From Halichondria panicea (lineage: Eukaryota > Porifera > Demospongiae > Suberitida > Halichondriidae), in the NCBI RefSeq assembly GCF_963675165.1, contig NC_087391.1:887001-951000 (forward strand): DNA of 64,000 bases. The letters run 5' to 3'. The notes under the pieces were generated by a model. The model made no database searches and had not been told where the DNA came from. It was given only the letters and a program-made list of their open reading frames with translations. Positions 54,708-57,139 of this stretch are shown one piece after another. The stretch's first letter is position 1, and each line of letters opens with the position of its first letter. The position numbers were made by a program, and so were the translations under genes.

Positions 54708-54833
54708 GTTTGCCTTCTAATGAGAAAAAACACTACAGAGGTTTTCAGGTTGCTTGTCACAAGCCTTTGTGAAGGTGAAGTGCGCATGCACATAGATTAA
54801 TTAAATTATATTTGAACTTACAGTGCTGAAGGA

Positions 54834-55812
54834 TTGCATGTCAACATGCCTAACCCGTACTCAAATGATCTTCGTTGGAGAGTAATTTGGTTGTATTTAG
54901 CTAAGAATCTTTCAATAGCAGAAGTATCTGAGCTCGTTTGTGTCAGTGAAAGAGCTATTAAACGATATATTACACAGTTTAATCAAACTGGTGATGTTCA
55001 TCCAGCAACTCATCAACATGGACCTCCTAAGCTCTTAGGCGAATTTGAGCAACTTGTCCTGCTAAGATTGATCACTGAAAACACAGGAATCTACCTGTAT
55101 GAGATACAGACCAAACTAGTGGCACGGTTTGGTGTGACTGTAAGTGTAGCAACCATTTGCAGAACATTGAAGTTTATGGGGTGCTCTAGACAAGTGCATC
55201 AAACATATCCCTATCAGACGCAGTGAAGAACTCAGAGCAAAGTTTATGGCTGAAATCTCCATGTATGACCCTTCTATGCTAATTTGGCTAGATGAAACTG
55301 GATGTGATAGACGTAATAGCACAAGAAAATGGGGGTATAGCATACGAGGTATACCACCAAAAGATCACCAAATACTTGTGAGAGGAACTCGATACTCCTG
55401 CATACCTATCATATCTATGAAAGGAATACATGATATCCATATTATTACCGGAACAATGGATAGTGCGAGGTTTGAAAACTTTCTTACTACAACTCTTCTA
55501 CCTATATTACAACCATTTAACTATCTTAACCCCTGTTCCGTTGTTATAATGGACAATGCTTCAGTCCATCACGTAGCAGAAGTTGAAGACTTAATTGAGA
55601 ATCAATTCGGTGCTCGATTAGTGTTTTTGCCTCCTTATTCTCCAGACCTAAACCCAGCAGAGGAAGTGTTTAGTGAAGTAAAAAGCATAATGAAACAAAA
55701 CAATGCTTTATTTCAAGTCACTACTAATCCAAGGTTTCTGTTAGCTACGGCATTCAGCATGGTCACCAAGGAGGACTGCTTAAAGTTCATTACACATTCT
55801 GGATATTTATAA
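54834..55812 (+). pseudogene. IS630/Tc1-type DDE transposase, one frameshift
   Basis: The N-terminal frame (54834-55226) has a helix-turn-helix DNA-binding region: DLRWRVIWLYLAKNLSIAEV, VCVSERAIKRYITQF, then a second winged-helix block (TICRTLKFMG). The catalytic frame (55246-55812 and a little upstream) has LDETGCDRR (first Asp), VVIMDNASVH (second Asp) and YSPDLNPAEE (Glu), with 35 residues between the second Asp and the Glu, so DD35E by my count. The two frames differ by one base, and similarity moves from one to the other near 55190-55200, so a single-base insertion or deletion there is likely. A sequencing error or ribosomal frameshift could also explain it. All three catalytic acids remain. 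Confidence 0.88.
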
Positions 55813-55886
55813 TTATCATACAGGACAACAATTATTAATACGTACAACTATTATACATGCACTGAAATTCTGTTAACTGGAAAAAA

Positions 55887-56836
55887 TTAAGAAACAGTTT
55901 TGTTCAGATGATGAAGGAGACTCATGATCGACTCTTTCTCGGAGCAAAATTCACTTTCAGACAAAATTCCTGTGCTCTTCAAATTTTGAAGTTCTGAAAG
56001 CTGTCTATACAGTTTTGATCGACCTTCAATGACCTTTGCAGGACTACTACCAACTGCACTTGTCTCTTTTGGAGAGAGAGCAGAAGTTATGGCTGTTGCA
56101 GCTTCACTCATCAAATGAGATACAGAGTTTTGACTTTTCTTGCGATAAGGAGTTCCTCCTCCAGACCTAGCAAACATTGTTGTATTTGGGGGATCATCCA
56201 ACCCCTCGTGTAAACCACCAGTAATCATTTCTCCCCAAATGCGATACTGCATCAATGTGAATTTCGACCCATACTTTTCTTTTAGATTTTCCACAGTCTC
56301 CTGGACCTTGTCTTCTTTACTGGTGTCACTTTTCTTTTTCTTTTTAACACTGTCTTCATTTATAGATGCTGTTTTTTTCCTCTTATTTCCTCTTGCTGTG
56401 GTAACTGGAATGCATTCTTTAAGACCATCACACCATAGTGTTAAACTACAATTGGGCTTGTTTAAATCAGACAAAACTTCATACACGTCTTCTTCACTAC
56501 GACTCCGTATCACAGTATAGATCCACGTACGTAGCCAACATCAAAGTCTTCCTGTGTAATATCTTGACACAGTTGGCTTCTTATTACTATCTTCAGATCA
56601 TCACATGAACAAACTAGAGCAGTATCGATATTACGAAGGGTAAAAGATCGACACACCTTACTATCATCCTTACACACTGCTCTCAAAACAATTTTGTCCA
56701 GTTTGGTAGACTTTTCATTCGACAAAGGGTGACCTTGGCATCCTGACAGTGGAGTAACCCTAACTCTACCGCTGTTTACTGTCACACTGTGTTGTACTAA
56801 GTTTCTAATAGCACTTTGACTAAGATTCATCATCAC
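55887..56836 (-). pseudogene. transposon-borne accessory gene: PB1-like, Lys-rich and SHOCT-like regions, one frameshift
   Basis: Two minus-strand frames, 56510-56836 and 55887-56513, abut and overlap with a one-base shift near 56510-56520. The first has conserved-looking SFTLRNIDTALVCSCDDLKI and the second continues with RSRSEEDVYEVLSDLN and LTLWCDGLKE. Together these resemble a PB1/ubiquitin-like domain spanning the break. Then come a nuclear-localisation-like KKKKKSD run with nearby RKK, the motif FTLMQYRIWGEMITGGLHEG followed by DDPPNTTMF, and a C-terminus (LYRQLSELQNLKSTGILSES, EFCSEKESIMSLL) like the SHOCT short C-terminal domain. There is no nuclease or helicase motif. Being inside the inverted repeats, it belongs to the element; the role is unknown, perhaps DNA binding or transposase partnering. 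Domain labels are by eye. Confidence 0.7.
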
Positions 56837-57139
56837 TCATTCATTTTCCAAGCTAGCCTAGCCACGTGTCTCAGTGGAGTCCAAAGTTCATACAGTAGAA
56901 TAATTGATACGCATGCGCGGCTCTATGTGACAAGCAACCTGAAAACCTCTGTACACATTCCACAATTCCGAATCCATCATCTGATGCGCATGCGCATCAC
57001 ATCAAAGTCGCTCTCTACTAGTACCAATCGTAGTAATTTGGAACAGGGTCATTAACTATACAAATTTAAATAATGAGGTCATAATGATTAATGATTAAAA
57101 ATGAATAATGAGCTGAGATGGAATGCAACAGAACACCGG

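Follow-up and report, generated by a model that had tools for sequence, protein, structure and literature searches.

A lineage of IS630-type DNA transposons with two convergent genes in a sponge genome

The genome of the sponge Halichondria panicea harbours DNA transposons that appear to be of the cut-and-paste, IS630 type and to carry two co-inherited genes: a transposase and, converging on it from the opposite strand, an accessory gene. The element with which the analysis began lies in a stretch of 64,000 nt (the window; contig NC_087391.1, positions 887,001 to 951,000), where it occupies 54736-56951, or 2.2 kb between two TAs. Its inverted repeats (54734-54761 and 56926-56953) are 28 nt long and 100% complementary with the TA included, or 26 bp without it; the chance of a perfect 28-nt pair within 2.7 kb is ~1e-10. 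An initial annotation, made from the sequence of the window, had given exactly the span 54736-56951 and had recognised the TA-flanked perfect inverted repeats. It was equally right about a DDE transposase on the plus strand, which has DDE_3 (PF13358, E 5e-27) and HTH_23 (5e-8) domains and ends at 55812, and about a minus-strand gene ending about 75 bp from the transposase stop, the measured gap being 74 bp. The transposase (+) and the accessory gene (-) lie tail to tail (Table 1). What the annotation did not mention is that both genes are broken in the window copy, by one frameshift each, and are represented by two ORFs per gene; the N-terminal ORF of the accessory extends over 56510-56836.

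Table 1. Layout of the two-gene element in the window (positions are those of the window)
Feature	Position	Strand	Basis
TA target-site duplication, left	54734..54735		TA also flanks other copies
Left terminal inverted repeat, 26 bp	54736..54761	+	End recurs at other loci with 0-1 mismatches
Transposase, N-terminal part with HTH domains, frameshifted here	54846..55226	+	Intact homologue in sister copy
Transposase, C-terminal part; DDE_3, D-D-E, 35 residues from second D to E	55246..55812	+	PF13358, E 5e-27; alignment
Gap between convergent stop codons, 74 bp	55813..55886		Median 102 bp over 49 related pairs
Accessory gene, C-terminal part: PB1-like end, Lys-rich linker, conserved helical block, SHOCT-like C-terminus	55887..56513	-	ORF, alignment, Pfam, AlphaFold2 model
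Accessory gene, N-terminal part: PB1-like start, frameshifted relative to the remainder	56510..56833	-	ORF; PB1-like from family alignment
Right terminal inverted repeat, 26 bp	56926..56951	-	Repeat comparison
TA target-site duplication, right	56952..56953		Repeat comparison

When the 28-bp ends were used to find other copies, as had been suggested, the same ends were met in at least five copies, that of the window included, three of them nearly full-length and two with a common large internal deletion. In a search of the host genome with the whole element, the two nearly full-length copies outside the window proved to be 97-98% identical. The ends have 0-1 mismatches at these copies, and more diverged forms occur elsewhere in the genome. 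The flanking DNA is different at all five sites (5/5), and both ends with a TA on each side are kept in 4/5, part of the right end being lost from the C1 copy. That sister copy has no break in either frame; its transposase is 321 aa long, counted from the first Met, and its accessory 314 aa. The ORF pieces of the window hence derive from two real genes. A copy with both genes and both ends intact was not seen among the focal-subfamily copies examined.

Shorter relatives of the element are also present. Two 1.35-kb copies (C12:2903091 and C3:2400243) have lost most of the transposase through one common deletion and retain both ends; their accessory region is retained but frameshifted. Since the deletion is shared at different sites, these copies can be classed as a non-autonomous derivative that went on moving once the deletion had arisen. 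In addition, TA-flanked elements of ~165 bp with focal-like ends (TACAGAGGATTTCAGGTTGGTTGG...) and a long internal hairpin are found at C9:677951, C10:6126524, C10:6131155 and C10:6135395, and they are likely to be MITEs mobilised by the two-gene lineage.

The pairing of the two genes extends far beyond this subfamily. The search covered one genome (131 Mb, 39 contigs) and combined the results for protein queries that were single divergent transposase and accessory members from several subfamilies; repeat counts are to be read as lower bounds. Wnt genes are present in this genome, which marks it as that of an animal, and the smallness of both the Wnt set and the genome would fit a sponge. Counting was restricted to transposases that keep their C-terminal end, the side where the accessory gene should adjoin. 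An accessory gene on the opposite strand, in convergent orientation, was found beside 49 of 55 such matches, where 0.03 would be expected by chance. All 49 pairs are tail to tail, with a gap of 46-535 bp (median 102 bp). The six unpaired transposases are mostly fragments or decayed, and one of them has an accessory match 1.8 kb off. As the copies are related, the 49 pairs cannot be counted as 49 separate events; what counts independently is the presence of the gene pair in at least 10 subfamilies (F1-F10, F12), across which transposase identity falls to ~37%. Several other subfamilies have TA-flanked inverted ends of their own with related sequence (TACAGAGG..., TACAGCAG..., TACAGTGG..., TACTGGAC...). 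The initial annotation had proposed a two-gene lineage and had pointed out that other copies lacking the second gene would speak against it; the convergent partner at 49/55 loci bears the proposal out. The single-gene state is usual, though not defining, in the IS630-Tc1-mariner group, and it is departed from here. The broken ORFs of the window copy could by themselves suggest a chance ORF or nested independent insertions, a reading to which we give almost no credence in view of the recurrence, the conserved convergent spacing and the intact ORFs at sister loci.

The transposase can be classed as IS630-type, a member of the IS630-Tc1-mariner group. The features of that group are all present: TA duplication, terminal inverted repeats, DDE_3 with a D-D-E triad and an N-terminal HTH. 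HTH_23 and HTH_29 score above the Pfam cut-off, DDE_3 is likewise recognised, and D149, D236 and E272 are invariant in an alignment of 13 transposases. Three transposases of the lineage reach 153, 125 and 131 bits with the NCBIfam IS630 equivalog model (cut-off 100). The model is not exclusive, since a Tc1-like control also passes, if just (106.8 bits). In a tree with bacterial IS630 and two in-genome Tc1-like transposases as references (mariner, pogo, Traveler and ciliate members were outside its sampling), the two-gene transposases form one clade at 100/100, whose closer neighbours are bacterial IS630 sequences rather than the Tc1-like pair. It joins two bacterial IS630 sequences of cyanobacterial type at 80/80 only. 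Cyanobacteria are likewise among the best matches in a scan of prokaryotes, in which the nearest relatives are ~26-36% identical. Several near-full-length bacterial IS630 matches are split mid-gene into two frames (longest ORF ~205 aa), as would be seen in genes that carry a frameshift or use a programmed one. Placing the transposase in a tree, one of the checks proposed at the outset, put it apart from the in-genome Tc1-like lineage and, with the limited references and the 80/80 join, tentatively on the bacterial IS630 side. Of the original label, Tc1/mariner-IS630, the second half is supported (153 bits against 100) but the first is loose. The separate Tc1-like DDE_3 lineage has open frames of 345-354 aa at C16:4345041 and C1:8509955; no accessory gene was found within 2-kb loci around the in-genome Tc1-like transposases.

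The spacing of the triad had been put forward as a mark of the lineage, DD35E, and this had to be given up. The distance from D to E is 35 residues in F1, F2 and F12 only, 36 in F3 and 34 in most other subfamilies, so that DD35E is local to the focal branch and the majority is DD34E.

Multi-gene ITm elements and second ORFs are already known, and the gene pair described here has to be set against them. Bacterial IS630 elements such as ISY100 share the HTH plus DDE_3 transposase and the TA target; they have a single transposase gene (PMC2170065), to which the two-gene lineage adds the accessory. No match to the accessory was found in 80 bacterial IS630 loci. Multi-gene ITm elements are known in ciliates (PMC3464196, PMC7325037). 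Tec, TBE, Sardine, Thon and Anchois resemble the sponge elements in that other ORFs lie within their inverted ends besides an IS630/Tc1-type transposase, and Sardine and Thon have also been described as DD35E (PMC3464196); the extra ORFs of the ciliate elements, compared here by description only, encode a tyrosine recombinase in some cases and hypothetical proteins in others. Some mariner elements of viruses and protists carry Fanzor1, and those with Fanzor1, endonuclease or methyltransferase genes are likewise multi-gene and TA-flanked (PMC3627910). The additional proteins differ from one such element to the next, and some are enzymes, whereas here there is one constant family with no recognisable enzyme domain. 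In scans of viral contigs no relatives of the accessory were found, and the transposase matches there had no accessory match within the flanking sequence retrieved. PIF/Harbinger and its relatives (PHIS) offer an analogy, a DDE transposase with a conserved second ORF (Myb/SANT or YqaJ; PMC4482050), but the transposase superfamily, the target sites and the accessory domain are all different. The Traveler DD35E family shares its 35-residue spacing with the focal branch (F1, F2, F12), unlike most of the two-gene lineage, which is DD34E; the comparison is one of D-E spacing. The abstract on Traveler mentions no second gene (PMC7093834). No published description of the present gene pair was found in the part of the literature covered, open-access papers outside Repbase and Dfam.

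The two genes seem to have descended together. The transposase and accessory trees have 5/8 splits in common, a number reached in 0/5000 label shuffles; the three deeper transposase splits missing from the accessory tree fall at a depth at which the latter is poorly resolved. Between F1 and F2, the accessory genes differ by 129/95/202 changes at codon positions 1/2/3 over 303 codons, and in another comparison between subfamilies by 113/107/183. The excess at third positions, together with pairwise dN of ~0.5 and saturated dS between subfamilies, indicates purifying selection on the accessory between subfamilies, with no bearing on the present copies.

These results weigh on the suggestion, left standing by the initial annotation, that the second gene is cargo, that is, a captured host gene or selfish passenger carried by chance. 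In some subfamilies the accessory genes appear spliced, which is host-like. Yet the identical pair and layout recur across at least 10 subfamilies with congruent trees, and the two strongest accessory matches that lack a transposase prove to be degraded remains of an F2-like element rather than host genes. As the pair is co-inherited and a host homologue of the accessory was not found in the host genome, a single capture as cargo is disfavoured, and we regard the captured-gene reading as very improbable. The other half of that suggestion, a partner, fares better. Given that the gene pair recurs in at least 10 related families of the genome, the accessory probably works for the transposon, as its partner or regulator, and is not a one-time passenger.

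The accessory alignment has four recurring regions: an N-terminal block, a Lys/Arg-rich stretch and two further conserved blocks, in this order. The Lys-rich part of the initial description is thus recovered across the family. The helical block is centred on 'QLRxWAxMIxxGxHxSxDxPPxxPxF', and the C-terminus has the motif 'LRSxxxxQLxxxxxLxxxGVLSxxEYxExK'. The PB1-like and SHOCT-like parts, which had also been named, are each borne out in part. In the N-terminal block the order of elements is as expected for the beta-grasp of PB1, and with hhalign the family alignment matches a host PB1 domain (C4:7714844) in register at 26.3 (P 1.3e-4); among the controls, 200 of them shuffles and 200 fragments of real proteins, the highest score was 17.5. 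Pfam PB1 (PF00564) remains below its gathering score, however (14.4 bits vs. 23.6, one member scanned), and a genome-wide PB1 scan listed no accessory locus. Because the Pfam cut-off is not reached, we infer likeness to PB1 at the level of the fold. As for SHOCT (PF09851), 9 of 16 accessory members give a match with E no higher than 1, but the best scores (24.7 and 24.2 bits) stay under the cut-off of 27. A single-sequence AlphaFold2 model of the C-terminal window piece (55887..56513) has a C-terminal helical hairpin, with block-mean pLDDT of 81-86 over most of its length; that of the N-terminal piece is poor, the gene being frameshifted inside the PB1-like domain. In domain scans, neither a catalytic domain nor a DNA-binding domain of classical type was recognised in the accessory.

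Some other matches should be noted. The last 80 residues of the accessory at L068:1375-2160 match the phage family phrog_2700, of unknown function (4e-8), probably through the SHOCT-like part. Profile matches to PDB entries were set aside as chance-like, both that to 8-oxoguanine glycosylase (0.0026, covering 34 residues in the helical block) and that to p53 chains (value ~1). An apparent short GT-AG intron lies near the accessory 5' end at L061:1140-1360, L072:2530-2920 and L071:2490-2904 and is seemingly missing from the focal subfamily. In F4, for example, a first exon with the ATG is followed by GT...AG and then by the PB1-like exon, and F7 and F8 are alike; some subfamilies' accessory genes thus appear to carry a spliceosomal intron.

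What may the accessory do? The transposase would be expected to bind the 26-bp ends and to cut and paste the element into TA, as is the behaviour of IS630/Tc1 enzymes (PMC2170065). The accessory could enter the nucleus by virtue of its Lys/Arg-rich linker and associate with itself through the PB1-like N-terminal domain, the SHOCT-like C-terminal hairpin or both. It would then work with the transposase on end complexes, or act on the level of the transposase, as a helper or as a self-limiting regulator. That it is so constant suggests that the life cycle of the element makes use of it, and the PB1-like and SHOCT-like parts, in the lack of a recognisable enzyme domain, argue for a role in protein-protein assembly. 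Taken together, a nuclear, self-associating transposition helper or self-limiting regulator is the reading we lean to, with somewhat better than even confidence. A stronger version, that of an obligate two-protein IS630-Tc1-mariner branch in animals in which the end complex would be built or restricted by the PB1-like/SHOCT-like protein, we hold only tentatively and think rather less probable. If true, control of assembly would have shifted from the transposase to a dedicated partner. For the bacterial IS630 element ISY100, the purified transposase is sufficient for transposition in vitro (PMC2170065); in this relative, then, the chemistry does not call for a second protein.

Two rival roles need to be weighed against the helper-or-regulator reading. 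Counter-silencing or manipulation of the host has been proposed for MuDR- or VANC-type proteins, and the accessory could likewise serve persistence in the genome rather than the transposition reaction. It is conserved alongside the transposase and under selection, it has neither a catalytic domain that can be recognised nor a classical DNA-binding one, and its absence from the 80 bacterial IS630 loci means that it may answer a eukaryotic need. No domain of the accessory indicates chromatin or DNA methylation, though, and we consider this role unlikely. To about the same degree we doubt the more specific role of a repressor or copy-number regulator, in which the accessory would poison assemblies of the transposase. 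The PB1-like and SHOCT-like parts do suggest multimerisation, and in the two copies with the internal deletion the accessory region has stayed where most of the transposase is gone, as trans-acting repressor copies might; but the accessory frame is broken in both, and they thus provide no evidence of a working repressor.

Tc1/mariner and IS630 are the textbook one-protein cut-and-paste systems. That a second protein has been kept down to ~37% transposase identity raises the question of what else, apart from the transposase, an IS630-type element requires in a eukaryote; assembly, self-limitation, access to the nucleus and escape from silencing are candidates. The lineage offers a natural transposase-partner pair that is testable with a simple TA readout. 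It also provides a combination of domains to be sought in other animal genomes, a PB1-like part, the conserved helical block and a SHOCT-like part, where proteins of the accessory type may currently be annotated as host genes.
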